DNA of 64,000 bases from Bacteroides fragilis NCTC 9343 (GTDB lineage: Bacteria > Bacteroidota > Bacteroidia > Bacteroidales > Bacteroidaceae), in NCBI RefSeq assembly GCF_000025985.1, contig NC_003228.3, positions 2,356,001 through 2,420,000 of the forward strand. Direction: 5' to 3'. A program made the position numbers and the translations under genes. Shown here piece by piece: positions 12,371 to 29,137 of this stretch; position 1 is the first letter of the stretch; each line of letters starts with the position of its first letter. Under the pieces are notes generated by a model. It ran no database searches and was not told where the DNA came from. It saw nothing but the letters and a program-made list of their open reading frames with translations.

Positions 12371-13750
12371 TTACGCCTGTTCGTAATTTGTATTCCAGTT
12401 TGTACCATCATCACCTTTCGTGCCGTCCAACTTGATAACAAAGCTCTTGGCAGGGAAGAACGGAGTCATGTGAATATCCAGATAAATACGGTCTTTCTGC
12501 TTTTGGTCTTGCTCGAAACGGATTATCTTGAATTTTTCGATAAGGCGGTCGGCTCCCTGTACACTATCAAGATACTGTACAATCTGCCCTCTCAGGTCAC
12601 GTTCGGTTTTAGAACTCCAGTTCTCGAACGAACGGCGGTTCAGGAAATCAAACAATACCTTGGTAATATAGTCGAATACACGTACCACAGAATAAGTTTG
12701 CAATCCCAGATTGTCACCGTTGAACAATGTCTTTGCGGAGAACGCCATCACTTTACCATATTCATTGACCATCGGAATTAAACCCATTTTCTCCAGTTGT
12801 GAGATTTCGCTTTTCTTCAACGGGAATACCACCGCATCTATTTCATTAATGCCGCCATACTTCTTACCGGCAGTTACCTGAGACATCAGAGTGGTGTAAA
12901 CTTTACCCATCAAAGCAATGGACGGAGAAACATGGAGGTCTTCCTCTTCACCGATTTCCCGGTATCCGGCACGTCCCACCAGCCAGTTGCAGGTCATGCA
13001 GGTATTGCTTTTGAAGGCCTCCCCACTTGCCATATTGGAGGAAGAGAACAGTTCCACCACATCTTCCGGCTTATCAAGGTCGGCAAAGTCCGTATAGAGC
13101 ATCACTTTATTTTCATAAGCGATTTTCGCCCATTTTTCAAGTACCTTATTCGAACCAAGATAGCCCGGAATGGCTAACAGTGAGTAATTTTGACGTAAAT
13201 CCAACTTGTCATAGTTCTGTTTCAGTTCGCGGGCAACGAAATCAATGAAGCGGGGATTGTCGAGGTCGGTCAGTTGTTCTTTGGAAGCATTGACTATCGT
13301 CACGTTGTTCACTTTGTCCGCTTCCGTATTCTTATAGAACAACATCACTCCACGGTATGCCTGTTCCATATCCCTCACACTCTGCACTGCCACCAATTGG
13401 CTTTTGGCAAGATGCGATGCGGCAGCTTCCGATTTAGCTTTAGAAGTGGCAATCATTTCCGTCACTGCCGATGATGAGTTCAGCAGGTCGATCCACATAT
13501 CTATCTTATTCTTCAGCACTTCCCGTTCTTCTTGCTTCTGTTCATCGGTTAAGAATATCTTTTTGCGTGCCTTACGCTCGGGGTTCAGGTTCTGAACACC
13601 ATCTACTGTTGATTCCAGAAAATTGAAACCGCCGAATCTGGACAACACATCCAGTGCCGAAGCCAGAGAGGATTCCCTGTTTTTCTCTTTATAGGAAACT
13701 TGAACGGTTTCTTGCGCCTGAACTTCAGACTTATTTTTATTATCTTCCAT
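12371..13750 (-). CDS. tssC: T6SS contractile sheath large subunit TssC
   Basis: 459 aa. After a ~60-residue polar N-terminus the family pattern begins with KIFLTDEQKQEEREVLKNKIDMW, then AIPGYLGSNKVLEKWAKIAYENKVMLYTDF, the latter typical of TssC/VipB. The C-terminal part contains the sheath handshake and gp18-like fold with the typical ITKVLFDFLNRRSFENWS. TssC forms the outer sheath with TssB around the Hcp tube. It starts 15 bases after tssB. No predicted membrane segments. Confidence 0.93.
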   Translation of the reverse strand: MEDNKNKSEVQAQETVQVSYKEKNRESSLASALDVLSRFGGFNFLESTVDGVQNLNPERKARKKIFLTDEQKQEEREVLKNKIDMWIDLLNSSSAVTEMIATSKAKSEAAASHLAKSQLVAVQSVRDMEQAYRGVMLFYKNTEADKVNNVTIVNASKEQLTDLDNPRFIDFVARELKQNYDKLDLRQNYSLLAIPGYLGSNKVLEKWAKIAYENKVMLYTDFADLDKPEDVVELFSSSNMASGEAFKSNTCMTCNWLVGRAGYREIGEEEDLHVSPSIALMGKVYTTLMSQVTAGKKYGGINEIDAVVFPLKKSEISQLEKMGLIPMVNEYGKVMAFSAKTLFNGDNLGLQTYSVVRVFDYITKVLFDFLNRRSFENWSSKTERDLRGQIVQYLDSVQGADRLIEKFKIIRFEQDQKQKDRIYLDIHMTPFFPAKSFVIKLDGTKGDDGTNWNTNYEQA

Positions 13751-21660: not shown

Positions 21661-21696
21661 TTTTGTCTTTCAGGCAAGACTGAAACATAAAAAAAG
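21661..21696. repeat. left copy of a 36-bp direct repeat
   Basis: Identical at 35 of 36 bases to 28964-28999, with the single difference at 21682. It contains the small hairpin GTCTTTCAGGCAAGAC. The two copies bracket the TetR-recombinase-array region, 7.3 kb apart. Each copy is followed by a different terminator-like hairpin and then ACTTGTC, so it could be either an insertion boundary (att-like) or a duplicated terminator cassette. Confidence 0.8.
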
Positions 21697-21722
21697 AGGG
21701 TACCCTTTTCGGACACCCTCTA
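21695..21722. terminator. terminator hairpin upstream of the TetR gene
   Basis: GAGGGT and ACCCTC arms around a CCCTTTTCGGAC-type loop just after the 36-bp repeat's A-run and 3' of the hypothetical gene at 21335. Probably ends that transcript. Confidence 0.55.
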
Positions 21723-21867
21723 AAAATGACTTGTCCCAAAATGACCTTGCTTCGATTTGCCAACAGAGTTCACAAATTTATTTTTGTTAATCTATTGCCT
21801 TTAATATGGTTTGTATGGGAATAAAATAGTATTTTCGGGATTGGAAAATATAAAAGACTGCTGTAAA

Positions 21868-22488
21868 ATGAAAATTACCCGTGATGAATTACTGATAGCC
21901 GCGTTCAAGCTGTTTATGTCCGTGAACTATGAAAAAGCCAGTTTTGCGGAACTTGGAAAGATGCTTGGAATGTCGAAAGCCGGAATATTCAAATACTACA
22001 AGAACAAACAGGAACTATTTATTGCCGTAGTGGATAAATTTTGGTTCAGCACGCAAAATCCACGAAACAAATTCACTGAAACAAACGGTACATTTGCCGA
22101 ATTTATAGACGAATATGTGCGTGGCGTACAACGGACAATGGATATGCTGGGCGACCTGATAGGTGCAGAGCGGGAAAAGGTGGCACAAGGAAAGTTCACA
22201 TATCACGCCCAATATTTTCATTTTCTGTTTCAACTGCTCCAATACGATCCTGATGCAAAAGAAAAACTCCGTAATCTTGTAGAGGTTGATTATGCTTACT
22301 GGCGTGCCGCTATACAACGTGCCATAGCTACCGGAGAACTAAGAGAGGATGTGGATGTAGAGGATGCGGTAGTCATGTTCCGGCAGGTTTACATGGGACT
22401 TTCGTTTGAAATGGCATTTATGGGCGGATTGAACACCCAGAGGCTTGCCAAACATCTACATGCCGTTTACTCCTTATTAAAGCGTTAA
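21868..22488 (+). CDS. TetR/AcrR regulator of the defence array (candidate)
   Basis: 206 aa from the Met at 21868. An ATG at 21811 would add 19 residues that do not look like TetR, so the later start is preferred. Residues about 5-50 are a standard TetR HTH: ITRDELLIAAFKLFMSVNYEKASFAELGKMLGMSKAGIFKYYKNKQELF. The C-terminal domain is helical. It sits 157 bases upstream of the recombinase gene. Two copies of the palindrome AAACGATCGTTT, at 22555-22566 and 26725-26736, overlap the promoters of the recombinase and of a second gene group. The proximity and placement make this protein the likely binder, but no binding data exist here. Confidence 0.85.
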   Translation: MKITRDELLIAAFKLFMSVNYEKASFAELGKMLGMSKAGIFKYYKNKQELFIAVVDKFWFSTQNPRNKFTETNGTFAEFIDEYVRGVQRTMDMLGDLIGAEREKVAQGKFTYHAQYFHFLFQLLQYDPDAKEKLRNLVEVDYAYWRAAIQRAIATGELREDVDVEDAVVMFRQVYMGLSFEMAFMGGLNTQRLAKHLHAVYSLLKR

Positions 22489-22554
22489 ACAGTCCCCATT
22501 TAACGCTGATTGCTTGCTGACCTGATTGTCCGTGCAAAAAAAAGATAAAAAAGA

Positions 22555-22595
22555 AAACGATCGTTTACTTTATTTGGAATAGTTTTATAACTTTG
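22555..22595 (+). promoter_or_regulatory. recombinase promoter with AAACGATCGTTT operator
   Basis: A perfect 12-bp palindrome (22555-22566) over the -33 region and a -7 TAACTTTG at 22588-22595. The whole segment, including the GTGCAAAAAAA lead-in and a TCATnnAAnTAATGA stretch after the -7, recurs at 26702-26790. The start codon is about 50 bases downstream of the -7. Confidence 0.7.
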
Positions 22596-22645
22596 GCAAT
22601 ATCATTTAACTAATGAGAGTTGTAATGTTATAAAACAAGCCCTAC

Positions 22646-23750
22646 ATGGATGCAAGCAAACAACGGGGAAGTATCGTACTGACAAAACAAAATATAGACG
22701 GTCAGGATTATATACGGATAGAATATGCCGATAATCAGACTATTGCCTTGCTACTTTCGCAAGACAAAGGAATTAAAACAATCGGGAACGGAAGTGCATA
22801 CATACAAGCATCCACTTTCCAGCTTCCGGAGTTCTACACCCGTTACTCTCCCCACGCTTATATTGATTACAGCCGGGTATATGTTCGTCATCCTAAACCC
22901 CAACGTGAATACGTGCTGCCGAAAGGCTATTTGGAATTACTGGAACAGAAGCGTTACAGTCCCTCGACAATCAAGACTTACAGGATTTATTTCAGTGATT
23001 TCATGGAGTATCACAAAGGGCGTAACATCGACCGTCTGAAAGTGGCGGATATCAATCACTATATACTTTATTGGGTGAACGAGAAGAAAATCTCCGTATC
23101 GCAACAGAATATGCGCATTAACGCTATCAAGTTCTACTACGAGAAAGTGGAAGGTGGCAAGCGGCAATATTACGGCGGAATCACAGGTACCAAAGAGTAC
23201 AAGACACTGCCCGAAGTGTTTAGCCGTAATGAGATAAGTCGTATCCTCTCCTGTTTGCCTAACTTGAAACATCATTGCATGATTTCGCTGATATATTCTG
23301 TCGGACTAAGAAGAAGCGAACTACTGAACCTTATCCCGAAAGACATCATCAGCGAACGGATGTTAGTACGCATAATGGGTAAAAGGAAAAAGTGCCGTTA
23401 TTCGTTGTTATCAGAAAAAGTATTGAATGAGCTACGAACATATAACAAAGAGTACCGTCCGAAGAAATGGCTGTTTGAGGGGGATAGTCCCGGTGAGCAA
23501 TATTCGGCGAGCGCATTGGTTAAAGTACTGAAAAGAGGCTGCCGAACGTGCAGGTATCAAACATCGGGTACATGTACACATGCTCCGTCACTCTTTCGCT
23601 ACCCATTTGTTGGAACAAGGTACTGATCTAAGAACCATACAGGAGTTGCTGGGGCACAATGACATTAAGACAACAAATATATATCTTCATGTAACGAGTG
23701 CCCATAAATCGAGCATACCCAATCCACTTGATACACTGGATGATTCGTGA
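22646..23750 (+). pseudogene. tyrosine recombinase of the array, frameshifted near its C-terminus
   Basis: The first frame gives 326 aa ending at 23626. Residues 1-95 are an uncharacterised N-terminal part, about 95-190 the SAM-like core-binding domain (RYSPSTIKTYRIYFSDFMEYHKG), then the catalytic domain with the first Arg in SVGLRRSELL. At 23536-23538 one extra G shifts the frame. The next frame continues perfectly with [20 protein letters not shown], holding the HxLRHS motif, then [16 protein letters not shown] with the catalytic Tyr, and ends at 23750. The intact protein would be about 368 aa. As sequenced, the last catalytic residues (H, R, H, Y) are lost. Alternatives are an assembly error or ribosomal frameshifting at AAAAGAGG. 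It resembles the recombinases linked to rAID immunity-gene arrays. Confidence 0.85.
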
Positions 23751-23776
23751 GGTGTGGATATTAGAGATTAGGAACT

Positions 23777-23819
23777 ACACCATAAGGTGTGGTTATTGAA
23801 TACATTAGTCACAACTTGG
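23777..23819 (+). repeat. possible first (attI-like) site after the recombinase
   Basis: A hairpin ACACC-ATAA-GGTGT at 23777-23790 and then, at about 23802-23819, a stretch ATTAGTCACAACTTG that matches the right end of the cassette repeats (ATTAGTGATAATTG in copy B). It lies between the recombinase and the first small gene, the position of the primary insertion site in an integron-like array. Weaker match than the four copies below. Confidence 0.45.
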
Positions 23820-23842
23820 AATAACTTATAAATGATAACAGT

Positions 23843-24223
23843 ATGGATAAAGACATTATAGTAGCAGAGGATGAAGATGTTAAAATCATCTTTCATTTCA
23901 AAGTGTTTTGCAAACTCTTGAAAGAGTGCATGTCTATATATGGAAATACTACCATAGAGAATGCACAACAACTGGTTAAAAACTTTCATCCTCTCCAACA
24001 GCCAATAAGCACTACTGATGATATTGTTTTCTTTTCTCACGAAAACATTTATCACTGGGCAATGCTTGCTCTATATGGTGAAACGTATTGGCTTATACAT
24101 CCTGAATGTGAAAAACTGCCCGATAGCTATGAGAAATGGGTAGAAAATGCTTTATCTCGGCATTCGTTAGATGACTGTTATGAATTTATGAGTAAGAATA
24201 ATAATGTGACTAACAAAGCATGA
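23843..24223 (+). CDS. array gene 1: hypothetical soluble protein, putative immunity
   Basis: 126 aa, no signal peptide or membrane segment, acidic, mostly helical (MDKDIIVAEDEDVKIIFHFKVFCKLLKEC...). The central HENIYHWAMLALYGETYWLIHPECEKLP stretch is distinctive but unknown to me. First gene after the recombinase. It ends inside cassette repeat A. By analogy with rAID arrays it may neutralise a toxin delivered by a competitor, acting in the cytoplasm. Confidence 0.65.
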   Translation: MDKDIIVAEDEDVKIIFHFKVFCKLLKECMSIYGNTTIENAQQLVKNFHPLQQPISTTDDIVFFSHENIYHWAMLALYGETYWLIHPECEKLPDSYEKWVENALSRHSLDDCYEFMSKNNNVTNKA

Positions 24224-24266
24224 TAACGCTTAACAGCGTTCCCCGCTTAGTCATTACTGATAATAG
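24211..24266 (+). repeat. cassette repeat A
   Basis: TAACAA box, then the stem AACGCT-TAAC-AGCGTT (24225-24240), then CCCCGCTTAGTCATTA and a TGATAATAG end. It covers the stop codon of array gene 1 and ends 3 bases before the next ATG. It aligns base for base with copy D except for one inserted base after the stem. Copies A and D differ in stem sequence but both pair perfectly, which means the structure is conserved. Confidence 0.85.
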
Positions 24267-24269
24267 CAA

Positions 24270-25130
24270 ATGAAAATAATGGAGATTAAATATATATTTT
24301 GTATCGTCTTTTGTTTTTGGGCAATGAAAACGACAATGGCACAAAGCGACAATAACTTGTTTGCTTTGGAAAAACAGCTTTGTTTTATTCAAGATACACT
24401 ATCTATACTACGGCAAAATTATCCCTATACAGATGATAATTACTGCGATTCTTTACAACATAGATTCTCTATCCTGCTGGAAGAACTTTGTGCAGTCGAT
24501 AAAGAAATGAAATACGATTTTATAGAATTGAGGAAAAAAGAACGGCAATTTACTATGGCAGTATCAGTAGACGAGGATATGAGGGTATTTTCCCGAAACA
24601 CTTATTTCGGTGGTTCGATGCCATTGTTTGCTTCTTATATTCAATATAAGGATAAAGAACACTTGTATTTCTTCGATATAAACGAGGATAATGATATGGG
24701 AATATGTTATGATACAATTTATTCCATTCAGGCATTGAATAAAAGATATTACCTGCTTTCAGGAACAAGCCAAATAGCGGCGGCATATCCTTTAGTGGTA
24801 ATGAAAGCTGTTGGTTGTGCAAACGGAGAGTTGAAGAAAGAAATAATATTCGTTTCCGGTAATCAGCAAACAGATTATTTGTCTATCTCTTATCGCTATG
24901 TAAAAGATAACATAGACACACGATTATTCATTAGTGGCAATTTAACGTTCCCCCGTATTGTATATGTTGAAACACAAGAGGAAATATTAAAGCCTGTTAC
25001 CGTGAGAGATAAAGACGATATCAAATATATCGGTGGAGAAATTGACGTTTATAAACTTGAAAGAAATAAGAATGAAATAAAATTCATCAATAACAACGAA
25101 AGTTACCACCTAAACGATGATCCTTTCTAA
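24270..25130 (+). CDS. array gene 2: secreted/periplasmic hypothetical, putative immunity
   Basis: 286 aa with an N-terminal signal peptide (KIMEIKYIFCIVFCFWAMKTTMAQ, cut after AQ around residue 22). The Met at 24279 is an equally good start. The mature part starts with a heptad-rich helix (LFALEKQLCFIQDTLSILRQNY) and continues as beta-rich (YLSISYRYVKDNIDTRLFISG...). Periplasmic export fits an immunity protein against envelope-acting toxins. The stop codon lies inside cassette repeat B. No family recognised. Confidence 0.65.
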   Translation: MKIMEIKYIFCIVFCFWAMKTTMAQSDNNLFALEKQLCFIQDTLSILRQNYPYTDDNYCDSLQHRFSILLEELCAVDKEMKYDFIELRKKERQFTMAVSVDEDMRVFSRNTYFGGSMPLFASYIQYKDKEHLYFFDINEDNDMGICYDTIYSIQALNKRYYLLSGTSQIAAAYPLVVMKAVGCANGELKKEIIFVSGNQQTDYLSISYRYVKDNIDTRLFISGNLTFPRIVYVETQEEILKPVTVRDKDDIKYIGGEIDVYKLERNKNEIKFINNNESYHLNDDPF

Positions 25131-25146
25131 CCATTAGTGATAATTG
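25091..25146 (+). repeat. cassette repeat B
   Basis: TAACAACGAAAG, a middle part ending CGATGAT, then CCTTTCTAACCATTAGTGATAATTG. Shares the TAACAACGAAAG and CCTTTCTAACCATTA blocks exactly with copy D, but the central stem is not complementary and carries one extra base, so this copy may be degraded. It overlaps the last 11 codons and stop of array gene 2; the next ATG is 9 bases downstream. Confidence 0.85.
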
Positions 25147-25154
25147 TATGATAT

Positions 25155-25628
25155 ATGGATATAGCAAAAATTATATATGTAAGTTTAACAATGCTGACTG
25201 CATGGGTGTTTATGAGTATAGCATTTCCAATTGATACTTATAAGCATCTTTTGGGAGTTGTAGGCTCTTATATATGTGTGAGCTGTTCGGCGCTGTTTGC
25301 AAGCTGGTTTGCATGGCATTGGGTACACCCTTTTTCTTATGTAAAGTATTTATTGTGTGGCTTGCTTACTGCATTTTTGTTTCATGCAGGCTTAACTATT
25401 GGTTGCAGTATTCCAATTATCTTTTTATCTTGTTGTGGGGTTCATGTGATAAGTACAGAAGCTATAACTCTGTGGGAAGTATTAAGCTATCTTTTTAGCA
25501 TTTTCATTATGTCTTTCTATTTTGTGGGAATTTTTACTTTTGGACAATGCTTGCTAACAGCGAGCATAACAAAGATAATAATATGGAAATTGAATATAGG
25601 TAACAATATCACTAATAACGCAAGATAA
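25155..25628 (+). CDS. array gene 3: four-TM membrane protein, putative immunity
   Basis: 157 aa. Four hydrophobic segments, near residues 5-25, 30-55, 65-95 and 105-140, make it an inner-membrane protein (IIYVSLTMLTAWVFMSIAFP ... FIMSFYFVGIFTFG). Small polytopic proteins of this sort are typical immunity partners of pore-forming toxins. It begins 9 bases after repeat B and ends in repeat C. Family unknown to me. Confidence 0.65.
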   Translation: MDIAKIIYVSLTMLTAWVFMSIAFPIDTYKHLLGVVGSYICVSCSALFASWFAWHWVHPFSYVKYLLCGLLTAFLFHAGLTIGCSIPIIFLSCCGVHVISTEAITLWEVLSYLFSIFIMSFYFVGIFTFGQCLLTASITKIIIWKLNIGNNITNNAR

Positions 25629-25677
25629 CGGCAAGATAACGGCAAGCCGTTCCCTGCTGAACCATTACTAACAATCG
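25616..25677 (+). repeat. cassette repeat C
   Basis: Starts TAACGCAAG, has the stem AACGGC-AA-GCCGTT (25638-25651) and then CCCTGCTGAACCATTACTAACAATCG. An 11-base unit (AACGGCAAGAT) is tandemly duplicated ahead of the stem, at 25627 and 25638, giving two alternative left arms. Belongs to the same subtype as copy A (CCCnGCTnAnnCATTA). The next ATG follows 4 bases later. Confidence 0.85.
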
Positions 25678-25681
25678 TGCG

Positions 25682-26149
25682 ATGAATAAAACAGTCCAGT
25701 CTATACTATCATTGACTGCTGTCAGCCTTTTACTGATAGTGATAACATTCTTTTTGGGTGGCTTAGGCTTCGGGCGACTATTTGGAATATATGGTGTTAT
25801 GGAAGATAGTTTTTTAGGTATGCTTATGGTTATAGATATGCTGGTAATCTACAAGGTCTATAAGCTATATTTCTGTCAGCCCAAAGCTATAATGTTATTG
25901 TTTGGTTTGGAATGTTGCTCTATTCTTTTGTGGCTTGTCTTTATCTGTTTAGACCAACATCTATTGGATTGGCAAATAACCAATCTGTTATTGCAAGCGG
26001 TCAGTTTGGACGGCTTCGCAGGAGATGAACGAGGGTTGAATATGCTTGCAGTCTTATGTGGTATGATCTATCCGCTTATTGGGATTGGGTGTTTATTCAC
26101 TGGATTGAGATTTATAAATAAGTTAGTAACAACGAAAGATAGCATCTGA
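25682..26149 (+). CDS. array gene 4: four-TM membrane protein, putative immunity
   Basis: 155 aa with four predicted membrane segments near residues 8-30, 40-60, 68-90 and 120-145 (SILSLTAVSLLLIVITFFLGGLGFG ... MLAVLCGMIYPLIGIGCLF). It has no clear similarity in sequence to array gene 3 despite the same layout, so the two were probably acquired separately. It starts 4 bases after repeat C and ends in repeat D. Function inferred from context only. Confidence 0.65.
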   Translation: MNKTVQSILSLTAVSLLLIVITFFLGGLGFGRLFGIYGVMEDSFLGMLMVIDMLVIYKVYKLYFCQPKAIMLLFGLECCSILLWLVFICLDQHLLDWQITNLLLQAVSLDGFAGDERGLNMLAVLCGMIYPLIGIGCLFTGLRFINKLVTTKDSI

Positions 26150-26182
26150 CGATGCTCCTTTCTAACCATTATAAACAATAAA
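26127..26182 (+). repeat. cassette repeat D
   Basis: TAACAACGAAAGAT, the perfect stem AGCATC-TGAC-GATGCT (26141-26156), then CCTTTCTAACCATTATAAACAATAA. It covers the 3' end and stop of array gene 4 and ends 10 bases before the next start codon. Together with A, B and C it defines the repeat family. Confidence 0.85.
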
Positions 26183-26192
26183 ACGAAGTTGT

Positions 26193-26624
26193 ATGGGAGA
26201 TATTGATATTCTTAATAAATTTGATAATGACAAGTTGATAGATGTAGTGAAAAATTATAAGCGCTATGGTTATGATGATGAGCTTCGTGATTATGCTATC
26301 AACTTATTGGGAGAGAGAGGATGGAGTAGAGAAGATTTGCAACAATTTGGTTATTTAACAAACTATGATTATGATGAAGCTGAAAAACAGTATAAAGCAT
26401 ACAATAGAAATTCATTGATAGGCATTTGTACGCTTGTATTTAGTGGAGGGATTTTGGCTGTTGTTTATTTAATCTTTCTAATTCTGGCTTATCGGAATGT
26501 TGCAAAATTCTATAATGCGTTAGGGCATAATCAAGATGAAACCGCATTATTCAACGCTCTTGGCGTGCTGGCTTATTTTCATCTGAAAGGAAGAATGAAA
26601 GAAGAATTAAAAGGAATAAGATAA
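26193..26624 (+). CDS. array gene 5: hypothetical membrane protein, putative immunity
   Basis: 143 aa. The first ~75 residues are soluble and charged (DNDKLIDVVKNYKRYGYDDELRDYAINLLGERGWSREDLQQFGY). One long hydrophobic stretch follows near residues 75-100 (LIGICTLVFSGGILAVVYLIFLILAY), enough for one or two membrane passes, then a cytoplasmic-looking tail. After its stop a weak half-repeat GATAACGTCTAAC (26641-26653) is seen, matching the left half of repeat A, but no full copy. Last gene of the first group. Confidence 0.65.
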   Translation: MGDIDILNKFDNDKLIDVVKNYKRYGYDDELRDYAINLLGERGWSREDLQQFGYLTNYDYDEAEKQYKAYNRNSLIGICTLVFSGGILAVVYLIFLILAYRNVAKFYNALGHNQDETALFNALGVLAYFHLKGRMKEELKGIR

Positions 26625-26724
26625 GTTTATAATGAAGTGGGATAACGTCTAACGGGGGATTATTGTTTGTAGCTGCACGGGCCTCTTTATATCCGTACAG
26701 CTAGTGCAAAAAAAGTTAAAAAGA

Positions 26725-26764
26725 AAACGATCGTTTACTTTATAAAAAATGTTTCATATCTTTG
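26725..26764 (+). promoter_or_regulatory. second AAACGATCGTTT promoter inside the array
   Basis: The palindrome is at 26725-26736 and the -7 TATCTTTG at 26757-26764, the same spacing (within one base) as at 22555-22595. The flanks GTGCAAAAAAA upstream and TCATCAAATTAATGA downstream also match the first promoter. This is a duplicated regulatory segment of about 90 bases and lets the following genes be transcribed independently of the first group. Confidence 0.75.
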
Positions 26765-26841
26765 GAGCGTCATCAAATTAATGATGTAATGTCTTGGCAG
26801 ACTAATACCTAAAAGCCAACTACTAATTTTTTATATTTTGA

Positions 26842-27300
26842 ATGATTATGAAAAAGTTCTTGTTTATTTTAACGGTAATTACCTGTTTTTTTGCAAGCAG
26901 TGTTGAAGCACGACGTGTGAGGTTTACAATCCCTGTGGACAACAGCATCCCGAAAGTAGTCACTCTTCCGGACAGTTCCTATTATAAAACAGATGAGGGC
27001 AGTCATTTAGACTTAGGCTATATCGAAGAAGATGGCAAACGTACCCTTGTACTATTCTCTGAGTCCAAGCCTGATACTTATTACGACATTTCGGACGAAT
27101 ATGCAGAAGCTATTTGTAGGGACTTGAACGTAGAAGAATTGGACACTCTTATCCCCAAGCCTACATTTTGGGATCAATGGGGTGGTAGCATCCTTTTCTA
27201 CGGTATTGTCGCATTAGTGGTTATCGGTGTGGTGAGTTATCTGAAAGATTTTATATTCAATCTTTTGGGGCTGTCGAAAAAGAAAGAAGAGGAGGAGTGA
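26842..27300 (+). CDS. secreted-then-anchored hypothetical protein of the second group
   Basis: 152 aa from the ATG at 26842; the Met two codons later is equally possible. Signal peptide KKFLFILTVITCFFASSVEA, a ~90-residue periplasmic-looking domain with conserved-looking ESKPDTYYDISDEYAEAI, a membrane segment near residues 115-135 (ILFYGIVALVVIGVVSYL), and a charged KKKEEEE tail. The topology places the middle domain in the periplasm. First gene after the second operator promoter. Putative immunity protein by context. Confidence 0.65.
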   Translation: MIMKKFLFILTVITCFFASSVEARRVRFTIPVDNSIPKVVTLPDSSYYKTDEGSHLDLGYIEEDGKRTLVLFSESKPDTYYDISDEYAEAICRDLNVEELDTLIPKPTFWDQWGGSILFYGIVALVVIGVVSYLKDFIFNLLGLSKKKEEEE

Positions 27301-27390
27301 AAAACAGCCCTAAAAGTTAATAGGCATGTGTATTAAATAACATCCGCAAAAATTTCTTACGGTAATAACAAACCACCAATAAAAATATTT

Positions 27391-28179
27391 ATGACTGACT
27401 TTAATTGGATGCTTTGGATAGTAACTCCAATCATCATCGTTTACTATCTTTATCGTCACGTATGGCCTGCCGTACGCAAGTTTATTCGCCTTTTTCAGGG
27501 CATACGCATCAATCCCCGTTCTCACTTGACGGAAGCGGAGTACAAGAAGCTGTCCGTAGGTTCACTTTATGCCTTGCAGCAGGGAGCCTATCTTAACTCC
27601 CTGACACTGGACATCAAGGATAAGCTTCCCACCATTCTTGCCGATTGGTGGGGCATCTGTAATGCCCAAGATGCCAAGCAGACTTTGGAATACCTCGGAA
27701 AAAAGGGATTTGCTTATTACTTCCCCCACGTTTATCAAGCTTTTCTGTTGGATGACGAGGAGGCGAAAGACCGGATTTTCCAGCAACACATGGATAGTCA
27801 GGAGGATTATGACAAAGCCGTGGAACAATTGCACAATCTCGAAGATTGCTACGATGAATTGCTGGAGTGTGGTACTATCACTTGTCGGGAAGACCTACTG
27901 CGCTACGGTGTAACGGGTTGGGATGCCGGACGTCTTAACTTCATGGCACGTGCTTGCTATGACATGAAGTATATCTCTGAAGACGAAGCGTGGCATTACA
28001 TAAATCATGCTTACGAAATGGTGCACAGCCATTTTTCCTCATGGCATGACTTTGCTATGAGCTACGTCATCGGGCGTGCCCTATGGGGAGGTAAAAGCGC
28101 ATCCAATTCAGGCATGATGTATATGGCAGAGGATTTACTGAAAAGTGAGAAAAGCCCGTGGACAAAAATCGAATGGTAA
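27391..28179 (+). CDS. DUF1266-family protein with N-terminal membrane anchor
   Basis: 262 aa. A single membrane segment at residues 5-22 (MLWIVTPIIIVYYLYRHVW) is followed by a soluble helical domain that matches DUF1266: W..WGI near residue 86, GVTGWDAGRLNFMARACYDMKYISEDEAWHYI near residues 172-203, and SYVIGRALWGG near residue 228. DUF1266 proteins occur widely next to polymorphic toxins and are thought to act as immunity proteins. It shares the second operator promoter with the gene 90 bases upstream. Confidence 0.75.
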   Translation: MTDFNWMLWIVTPIIIVYYLYRHVWPAVRKFIRLFQGIRINPRSHLTEAEYKKLSVGSLYALQQGAYLNSLTLDIKDKLPTILADWWGICNAQDAKQTLEYLGKKGFAYYFPHVYQAFLLDDEEAKDRIFQQHMDSQEDYDKAVEQLHNLEDCYDELLECGTITCREDLLRYGVTGWDAGRLNFMARACYDMKYISEDEAWHYINHAYEMVHSHFSSWHDFAMSYVIGRALWGGKSASNSGMMYMAEDLLKSEKSPWTKIEW

Positions 28180-28240
28180 CTAATGTAGCCTGCTGGTAGT
28201 GAATGTTGTTCCTTATCAAAATATCAGGAGTTTTGTATAA

Positions 28241-28465
28241 ATGAAGAAAGGCATAAAAAAAGATAATTATTTTGAACGTAACCGGATAATCCAGCAAACA
28301 CAAAAATACAGGTACAACTTTATCGACTACCTTTATTATCAGGGAGAGCGATATAATAAGAGATATATAAGAAGTTCTGGAAATCAGTTAATAACATTGT
28401 ATTGGATAGGTTTTGTTTTCTTGCCGCTCCTACCTTTTTGTACTCCTCACTATACCGATATCTAG
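28241..28465 (+). CDS. small hypothetical membrane protein
   Basis: 74 aa. A basic N-terminus (MKKGIKKDNYFERNRIIQQTQKYRYNFIDYLYYQGERYNKRYIR) and one hydrophobic segment near residues 50-68 (LITLYWIGFVFLPLLPFC). An AGGAG-like sequence lies a few bases upstream of the ATG. It and the next gene might be one gene interrupted by the stop at 28463, since both are short and membrane-associated, but their frames differ. Confidence 0.4.
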   Translation: MKKGIKKDNYFERNRIIQQTQKYRYNFIDYLYYQGERYNKRYIRSSGNQLITLYWIGFVFLPLLPFCTPHYTDI

Positions 28466-28474
28466 GGGGATATC

Positions 28475-28735
28475 TTGGAAAAAGTGAATTTAATAGAAAA
28501 TCTTCATCCGATAGTGGAGATCGTAATTTTTCTTTTTCCAATATTTGTTGCAATAACACTTCCGCCCAATTTGTGGTGCTTGTTGAGATACAAAAAAGAC
28601 AGGGCGATGGCCATCAAGCATCACTACCGACAAAGTATATGGAAGGATGCGATTCCCATATGGCTGTTGTGGATGATTCCTTTTTTATTTCACCTGTTAT
28701 TATTTGCAATCTATGATGTAACAACAAAAAAATAA
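28475..28735 (+). CDS. small two-TM hypothetical protein, TTG start
   Basis: 86 aa starting at TTG, preceded by AGGGGGA at a good ribosome-binding distance. Two hydrophobic segments (IVEIVIFLFPIFVAITL near residue 14 and WLLWMIPFLFHLLLFAIY near residue 63). No family recognised. Lies at the right-hand end of the array region, read the same way as the other genes. Confidence 0.45.
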   Translation: MEKVNLIENLHPIVEIVIFLFPIFVAITLPPNLWCLLRYKKDRAMAIKHHYRQSIWKDAIPIWLLWMIPFLFHLLLFAIYDVTTKK

Positions 28736-28748
28736 ACTAAAGGAAATA

Positions 28749-28904
28749 ATGAAAGCAGAACTAAAAATTGAAGAAGAACCCTTATTTTTCATAATCTCAC
28801 TTTTTGGGGATGCAAAACTAATTTTAATCACTGTAAATGAGTTAAATAGAGTGTGGGAGAATTACGTTAAAAGTAAGCCATTTTCCGACAATCGTACCCC
28901 CTAA
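28749..28904 (+). CDS. 51-aa hypothetical peptide
   Basis: ATG preceded by AAAGGAAAT, giving 51 residues beginning MKAELKIEEEPLFFIISLFG and ending SDNRTP. Starts 13 bases after the previous gene's stop. Its last codons form the left arm of a strong hairpin, so the coding end and the terminator overlap. Possibly the truncated start of a longer gene. Confidence 0.45.
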   Translation: MKAELKIEEEPLFFIISLFGDAKLILITVNELNRVWENYVKSKPFSDNRTP

Positions 28905-28929
28905 TCGTTTTTTGGGGAAGGGGGTACGA
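28894..28929 (+). terminator. hairpin overlapping a stop codon
   Basis: Perfect 9-bp stem CGTACCCCC / GGGGGTACG with an 18-base T-rich loop. The UAA of the 51-aa gene is in the loop. No strong T-run follows, so termination efficiency is uncertain. Confidence 0.55.
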
Positions 28930-28963
28930 TTTGGATACTAAAGTGTGTCTTTTTGTGCCCCTT

Positions 28964-28999
28964 TTTTGTCTTTCAGGCAAGACTAAAACATAAAAAAAG
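28964..28999. repeat. right copy of the 36-bp direct repeat
   Basis: 35/36 identical to 21661-21696. It is 65 bases from the 3' end of the tRNA-Lys gene. A terminator-like hairpin (TCCTACAAT ... ATTGTAGGA, 29000-29026) and then ACTTGTC follow it, parallel to the left copy. Confidence 0.8.
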
Positions 29000-29064
29000 T
29001 CCTACAATACGTTGATATTGTAGGACTTGTCTCTTTTTTGTCGCCGTTTGGCTTTGTTCTTATG

Positions 29065-29137
29065 TGATCCGCCTGGGGCTCGAACCCAGGACCCCAACAT
29101 TAAAAGTGTTGTGCTCTACCTGCTGAGCTAGCGAATC
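29065..29137 (-). tRNA. tRNA-Lys (anticodon TTT)
   Basis: 73 nt without CCA. Acceptor GATTCGC/GCGGATC pairs with one G-T, the D arm is GCTCAGCAGGTAGAGC, the anticodon arm CAACA-CTTTTAA-TGTTG puts TTT at 34-36, and the T arm is CTGGGTTCGAGCCCCAG. The gene's 3' end faces the mobile-looking region on the left, the usual orientation when an island uses a tRNA 3' end as attachment site. No second copy of the tRNA 3' end was found in the window. Confidence 0.95.

Follow-up and report, generated by a model that had tools for sequence, protein, structure and literature searches.

The stretch analysed here, called the window throughout, comprises 64,000 nucleotides of Bacteroides fragilis NCTC 9343 (contig NC_003228.3, positions 2,356,001 to 2,420,000 of the forward strand); coordinates count from its first letter. 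Within it lies a gene array of the kind known as recombinase-associated acquired interbacterial defence (rAID), in which a TetR gene, a frame-broken tyrosine recombinase gene, an attI-like site and five candidate cassettes follow one another, each cassette being proposed to consist of one gene with an attC-like site at its 3' end. We propose that such arrays are built by an integron-type cassette mechanism with orphan immunity genes as cargo and under TetR control, and that the window copy is frozen; we hold this reading to be highly probable. The array is made up as follows:

21868..22488, + strand, TetR-family regulator, 206 amino acids from ATG (Pfam TetR_N, 6e-10)
22538..22573, + strand, promoter region with the candidate palindromic TetR-type operator AAACGATCGTTT (22555-22566); a second copy lies in the window, and palindromes stand at the same place in many relatives
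22646..23626, + strand, tyrosine recombinase, frame broken (Pfam Phage_int_SAM_4, 4e-16; Phage_integrase, 1e-10)
23766..23807, + strand, attI-like site, ending in CATTA at the start of cassette 1
23843..24223, + strand, cassette 1 gene, 126 amino acids; a relative lies behind an Rhs-DUF3990 gene in Cupriavidus
24206..24256, + strand, attC-like site 1
24270..25130, + strand, cassette 2 gene, 286 amino acids, N terminus signal-peptide-like (by eye); relatives in other arrays
25086..25136, + strand, attC-like site 2
25155..25628, + strand, cassette 3 gene, 157 amino acids, several membrane segments (by eye)
25608..25667, + strand, attC-like site 3
25682..26149, + strand, cassette 4 gene, 155 amino acids, several membrane segments (by eye); in 6 of 158 genus genomes, own included
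26122..26171, + strand, attC-like site 4
26193..26624, + strand, cassette 5 gene, 143 amino acids, membrane segments (by eye); in 10 of 158 genus genomes, own included
26625..26655, + strand, attC-like site 5, truncated to its left half; the complete site stands behind the same cassette in locus L152
26708..26743, + strand, second operator/promoter copy, a repeat of 22538-22573 (palindrome 26725-26736)

A first-pass annotation, made from the letters of this stretch, had described a recombinase followed by small, unrelated proteins, with structured repeats behind four of the first five. This description stands: the recombinase is supported by Pfam, five co-directional open reading frames (ORFs) of 126-286 amino acids lie behind it, repeats of about 50-60 bases follow four of them, and the fifth has a truncated copy. 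The complementarity of each cassette with its own far end, described below, shows that the repeats are not due to chance.

By homology and layout, the window locus belongs to the known rAID arrays of Bacteroidales, as the same annotation had supposed. These are defined by a tyrosine recombinase, co-oriented short genes, conserved intergenic motifs and cargo below 41% G+C, and the published reference array is that of B. fragilis NCTC 9343 at BF9343_RS08045, with dual-SUKH genes as ORFs 5 and 10 behind the recombinase (PMC12247911). In an array of the same genome at 2.03 Mb (locus L066) the dual-SUKH genes are the fifth and tenth ORFs behind the recombinase, as counted with a simple gene caller, and L066 is therefore taken as the reference. 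The window thus very probably holds a second rAID array of this strain. Its recombinase is homologous to the BF9343_RS08045-type copy at 2031401 (42% over residues 8-290), conserved intergenic motifs are present, and where the definition asks for at least two co-directional downstream genes below 41% G+C there are five, at 32-37%; homologous arrays carry known immunity families. The recombinase is not intact in the window copy, and since the definition as worded in PMC12247911 does not state intactness, membership rests on homology and layout. Window and reference share the tyrosine recombinase, co-oriented low-G+C short genes, intergenic motifs, putative immunity cargo, CATTA/TAAC sites and matching of own ends. 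They differ in that the window recombinase is only 40-42% identical to that of L066 and is broken, in that a TetR gene and operator, not found in the reference type, stand upstream of it, and in that the window cargo has no SUKH or Imm match.

With the in-frame piece as query, recombinase matches at E 1e-60 were obtained from 9 genomes of the family (201 searched) and 21 of the genus (149 searched), own genome counted in both. A named scan gave 29 loci, 25 of them in Bacteroides, Phocaeicola, Parabacteroides, Xylanibacter, Muribaculaceae and unnamed Bacteroidales; the other four are distant. The distant recombinase relatives L103, L105, L106 and L107 have no cassette-type sites in the fetched flanks. 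The compared loci fall into two recombinase groups, one at 72-95% identity (26 loci including the window, here the window type) and one at 40-45% (10 loci including L066, the reference type).

The spacers of these arrays have the form NNNNN-TAAC...hairpin...CATTA-NNNNN, and the roughly five bases behind CATTA are the reverse complement of those that precede TAAC at the cassette's own far end. For window cassettes 1-5, registered by hand, the six bases after the core match the six before TAA at 6, 4, 6, 5 and 5 positions. The automatic finder requires TAAC followed by A or G, together with CATTA, and cassettes 3 and 5 have TAATA and TAATG; it scored three window pairs, of which one passed. Among relatives, complementarity of at least 5 of 6 bases was found in 138/174 window-type and 50/63 reference-type cassettes. 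The corresponding controls gave 3/208 and 2/77 for the same spacer, 3/157 and 3/60 for the next cassette, 5/132 and 3/54 for the one further, and 20/208 and 7/77 for a random draw from the same array in which the true partner could be drawn. After reduction at 40% protein identity, 108 of the 133 non-redundant cassettes match, against a mean of 5.2 and a maximum of 16 in 5000 permutations. Position by position, complementarity is 91, 89, 90, 92, 86 and 56%, and then 24-35%. In a second set, of 12 loci, 46/58 cassettes matched their own ends (controls 0/71 and 1/50).

The same boundary emerges where cassettes change neighbours. The 237 cassettes include 110 pairs at least 80% identical over 90% of their length, and their left neighbours differ in 105 pairs and their right neighbours in 103. 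Identity per position is 23-72% left of CATTA and 75-98% behind it; at the right end it is 60-91% through the attC-like site and 31% at the first base past CATTA (CATTA itself is identical by construction, the sites having been found through it). This break on both sides implies that the attC-like site moves together with the gene that precedes it, which is the integron pattern. The term "integron-like", used by the first-pass annotation, proves more literal than supposed.

An attI-like site behind the recombinase is recognisable by eye in 23 of the 26 window-type loci (not in L048, L052 and L074), and differing first cassettes begin at its conserved CATTA or AATTA; it is a candidate cassette entry point beside the recombinase gene. 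Some of these sites end in AATTA, as in L058, whose first cassette is a relative of window cassette 1, suggesting an exchange within ATTA. An IS91-like (Y2, zinc-binding) transposase gene lies right behind the CATT of the attI-like region in L047 (4265-5485), L063 and L065 (in tandem, twice), the assignment being by Pfam for L047 and both L065 copies; it may belong to a single-strand transposon aiming at the attI-like site, or may travel like a cassette. Genome G240 has four arrays of the window recombinase type (L048, L050, L052 and L053) and one match of the other type; L048 and L052 hold identical cassettes in different positions, and L048 repeats some cassettes.

Folding was calculated for 178 distinct sites. 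In the circular form, in which a cassette's two ends meet, mean z is -3.8 for the top and -4.4 for the bottom strand, each against its own dinucleotide shuffles, or -3.9 and -4.9 when both are set against top-strand shuffles; the linear form with the next cassette's bases reaches -2.1 (top strand). The bottom strand is the more stable at 151/178 sites, and at 133/178 after subtraction of the difference seen in shuffled sequences. In integrons the substrate of the integrase is attC folded from its bottom strand, according to passages of PMC3053210 and PMC8352920.

The first-pass annotation took the recombinase as directly visible. The gene is present, but its frame breaks: the N-terminal and box-I part is in frame, and the catalytic HxxR-H-Y part (to about 23750) lies in another. 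The HxxR box is in frame in 34 of the 36 loci compared, the exceptions being the window and L077. In five intact relatives, the highest NCBIfam score is on the XerA/integron-integrase model (210-216 bits, cut-off 220), the integron-integrase model TIGR02249 scores 192-204 bits (cut-off 265) and the XerC/XerD models 183-191 bits; the closest solved structure to an intact relative's enzyme is IntI4 (1.8e-36). From GLR to HxxR there are 91 residues in all 34 copies with both boxes found, the window and L077 having no second box in frame. IntI4 has 134 residues from box I to HxxR, counted on the printed alignment, so that the recombinase is 43 shorter. Eight IntI residues are named in passages of PMC3053210 as touching extrahelical bases, six of them at 209-241; IntI4 has extra residues in this region, and its alignment with the recombinase splits there into two pieces. 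With a score below the cut-off and the IntI-specific region missing, the enzyme appears to work in an integron-like way outside the integron integrase family. Since the recombinase is broken and the fifth site truncated, the window array is probably frozen, barring a recombinase acting in trans. One attC family is common to both recombinase groups, and the intact other-type recombinase of the same genome might for that reason act on the window array.

The TetR gene stands directly upstream of the recombinase in 25 of the 26 window-type loci, window included; at L052 the TetR match is more distant, about 2.9 kb upstream, and runs off the edge of the fetched stretch. None of the 10 loci of the other type has a TetR match. 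A palindrome with arms of at least 7 bases, located 45-65 bases ahead of the point where the recombinase match begins, was found in 18/26 window-type loci (the one in L056, counted here, may not be an operator) against 0/10 of the other type. A shorter palindrome, AACG(A/T)TCGTT, was seen by eye in the window, L046, L054, L062 and L016; L065, L075 and L076 are ambiguous. The palindrome varies among loci with diverged TetR proteins, which fits a regulator and an operator changing together. In genomes G319 and G240 (L149 and L150) a relative of the window gene at 26842 is preceded by TetR and operator in the absence of a recombinase, with an extra ORF between in G319. We considered whether the second operator copy of the window is a target duplication; a shared regulon would be the simpler reading in view of these two genomes.

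The 232 cassette ORFs have a median of 187 amino acids and 33% G+C, and 99% are below 41%. Among 148 cassette proteins (60% identity), the 25 listed of 56 Pfam families include SUKH-1 (9), PoNi (6), Imm-NTF2 (4), Imm22, Tdi1 and GAD-like (3 each), Imm9, Imm5, Imm51 and Imm11 (2 each), and leucine-rich and TPR repeats; NCBIfam adds TaeI (3), Bfi1 (3) and single repeat-protein models, some labelled effectors of other bacteria. Known immunity families in relatives' arrays include SUKH, PoNi, Tdi1, Imm5, Imm9, Imm19, Imm22, Imm51, TaeI and Bfi1. Linkage clustering divides the cargo into 122 families, 5 of which are shared by the two recombinase groups.

The window's own array proteins, which the first-pass annotation could not recognise, indeed gave no known family in Pfam or NCBIfam. 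PADLOC, run on ten window proteins, returned a single weak match, that of TetR. Cassettes 2, 3, 4 and 5 have no match in plasmid records, and cassettes 2 and 3 no relative on viral contigs. For cassette 1, an immunity function is supported by context. In Cupriavidus campinensis (L194, 5950-6923) a toxin-like gene for a 1591-amino-acid Rhs-repeat protein with a C-terminal DUF3990 is followed by two relatives in tandem that share 60% identity, the first of them 30 bases downstream of it (tblastn 3e-9; profile comparison 99%). The place directly downstream of a toxin gene is the usual one for an immunity gene, and the tandem genes represent an unnamed immunity-like family. Next to other relatives of cassette 1 stand a patatin-like phospholipase (G279) and an M48 peptidase protein (G333). 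No toxin-linked relative was found for cassettes 2-5, the neighbours of whose relatives were not scanned for toxins.

From these data the following mechanism is proposed. In an excised circle, the first bases of a cassette would pair with its own inverse core, and the paired attC-like site would close into a long imperfect hairpin, usually more stable as the bottom strand. The recombinase would join it, within the shared core, either to another attC or to the attI-like site that follows the recombinase gene. A TetR repressor bound to the palindromic operator would control the recombinase and, in the window, also the second promoter before 26842. The cargo would be orphan immunity genes against contact-delivered toxins. 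Directly visible in the sequences are how the sites are built, the cassette-specific ends, the breakpoints, the association with TetR and operator, the cargo families of relatives and the broken recombinase; circles, intracellular single-strand folding, recombination, repression and immunity conferred by cassettes 1-5 are inferred.

Several features are shared with integrons: an attI-like site lies by the recombinase gene, each cassette has one gene and one foldable site, the attC-like site accompanies its 5' gene, the two ends of a cassette are complementary, the bottom strand folds better, and exchange would fall in the core. The start of an integron cassette is likewise complementary to its own inverse core. 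In contrast to integrons, with their RYYYAAC/GTTRRRY boxes, the boxes here are N5-TAAC and ATTA-N5 with cassette-specific bases, the recombinase gene is co-directional with the cassettes, and the recombinase lacks the IntI-specific region and stays below the integrase cut-off. Integrons are under SOS control, whereas the window type has TetR. With Xer and XerA the recombinase shares its highest NCBIfam score, but it has an extension of about 90 N-terminal residues ahead of the matched part and sits beside cassette arrays and not dif (no search for dif was made).

An ordinary operon of five genes, punctuated by terminator-like repeats, would agree with their common direction and short gaps, and we give this reading almost no credence. 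Arrays of other species contain relatives of cassettes 1, 2, 4 and 5, among the loci listed no single one holds relatives of all five, and the cassette-specific ends contradict such an operon; the conserved operon that the first-pass annotation named as a refutation is not what the relatives show. Cassette 3 occurs only here among 158 genus genomes, with no relative in the 157 others, and G216, G289 and G266, which have relatives of cassette 5, show no cassette pair in the fetched flanks. Growth by homologous recombination between repeated intergenic sequences, with the recombinase moving only the whole island, is very improbable. Same-family attC repeats recur within and between arrays and would offer short homology, and related islands lie in different places, for instance away from ettA in G257, but exchange within repeats should scatter the breakpoints, while the observed change falls exactly at CATTA on both sides; nor would it explain why the first five or so bases match the cassette's own far end and not those of neighbours. 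More serious, if still doubtful, is an Xer-like action on duplex core sites, the hairpin being a terminator or by-product. The enzyme is shorter than IntI exactly where IntI reads folded attC, its XerC/XerD scores come near those on the integron model, and part of the bottom-strand bias is compositional; the duplex model accounts neither for the bias remaining after correction nor for how strongly the circular form folds. As to the cargo, a different role in which immunity genes are a subset, for example in anti-phage defence or general adaptation, is rather improbable. Four of the five window proteins have no assignment, the immunity families listed cover at most about 43 of the 148 cassette proteins, and leucine-rich, TPR and ankyrin repeat proteins travel too; yet the commonest named cargo families are immunity families, PADLOC gave only a weak TetR match among ten window proteins, and relatives of cassette 1 lie beside an Rhs gene.

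Several points weigh against the cassette mechanism as proposed. Shuffled sequences show a third of the bottom-strand bias, the recombinase misses the integron-integrase cut-off and has 43 residues fewer than IntI4 between box I and HxxR, and cassettes 2-5 fall in no known family. About a fifth of the cassettes (36/174 and 13/63) have no end match. The loci are not independent, several coming from one genome, and in the second set 47 of 58 cassettes resemble those of the first; it is not counted as independent because it holds mostly the same cassettes, and with 7 of its 10 new non-redundant cassettes passing it is a weak replication. In the relics L146, L152 and L117 the array persists although the recombinase carries internal deletions or is cut, to an extent that varies among them. 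Each of the three keeps an attI-like site, L146 and L152 also keep the C-terminal end of the recombinase, and L146 has an additional partial TetR copy. The cassette mechanism nevertheless stays our preferred reading. The broader view that rAID is a second integron-type system, with an Xer-like recombinase lacking the IntI-specific region, circular immunity cassettes, folded single-stranded attC-like sites and one TetR-controlled branch, we regard as evenly poised, the partly compositional nature of the bottom-strand bias counting against it.

Beyond the cassettes follow the second operator, a 152-amino-acid protein, a DUF1266 protein and small ORFs, and then tRNA-Lys (29064-29137, ARAGORN) and an ettA-like gene. 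The bounding and neighbouring features are:

21661..21696, no strand, left copy of a 36-bp direct repeat, 97% identical to 28964-28999
26842..27300, + strand, 152-amino-acid protein, by eye with a signal peptide and a membrane segment at the C terminus; not in cassette form
27391..28179, + strand, DUF1266 protein (Pfam, 6e-48), 46% G+C, not in cassette form
28964..28999, no strand, right copy of the direct repeat, natively adjoining tRNA-Lys

The stretch 21661-28999 put forward by the first-pass annotation corresponds to the outer ends of the two repeats, but the cassettes end at about 26655, past which the automatic site finder gave no further site on the cassette strand. The two larger genes beyond have 40.5 and 46.4% G+C, and the cassette genes 32-37%. 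Two small ORFs at 28241-28735 both match one stretch of L046 (8494-9084) and are probably one gene broken in this strain. The 21-base core of the repeat matches the genome exactly at two places and with 3 mismatches at a third. The left copy appears to be the duplicate, because the right copy and adjoining DNA are native beside tRNA-Lys in G315 and G279; no empty site proving insertion of the whole island at this repeat was found. The repeats bound the island, and in B. finegoldii (L017) another immunity-gene array lies immediately before ettA. The type VI secretion genes noted close by are real (TssC, 6e-228; matches to VgrG-like, gp25 and ClpV-like). They lie to the left of the array, with the end of TssC at 13750 and thus some 8 kb short of the TetR gene; the closeness may be a coincidence.

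The rAID arrays themselves are already known, and how they gain two copies of an immunity gene is described as not yet clear, their biogenesis being under active research (PMC12247911). The main text of that paper uses none of the words integron, cassette and hairpin, and an integron-type cassette mechanism for rAID is not stated among the open-licence papers listed by the literature searches; the founding paper (Ross 2019) may already make the comparison. The cassette-specific ends and breakpoints give a concrete and testable mechanism with defined sites. The site rule allows cassettes, and hence candidate immunity families, to be excised automatically from genomes, and one unnamed family has been linked to an Rhs gene in the process. 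Integrons arose from Xer recombinases, and if folded attC-like sites are indeed recombined by an enzyme without the IntI-specific region, this would bear on that origin. Gut bacteria would then gather immunity to toxins as others gather resistance to antibiotics.

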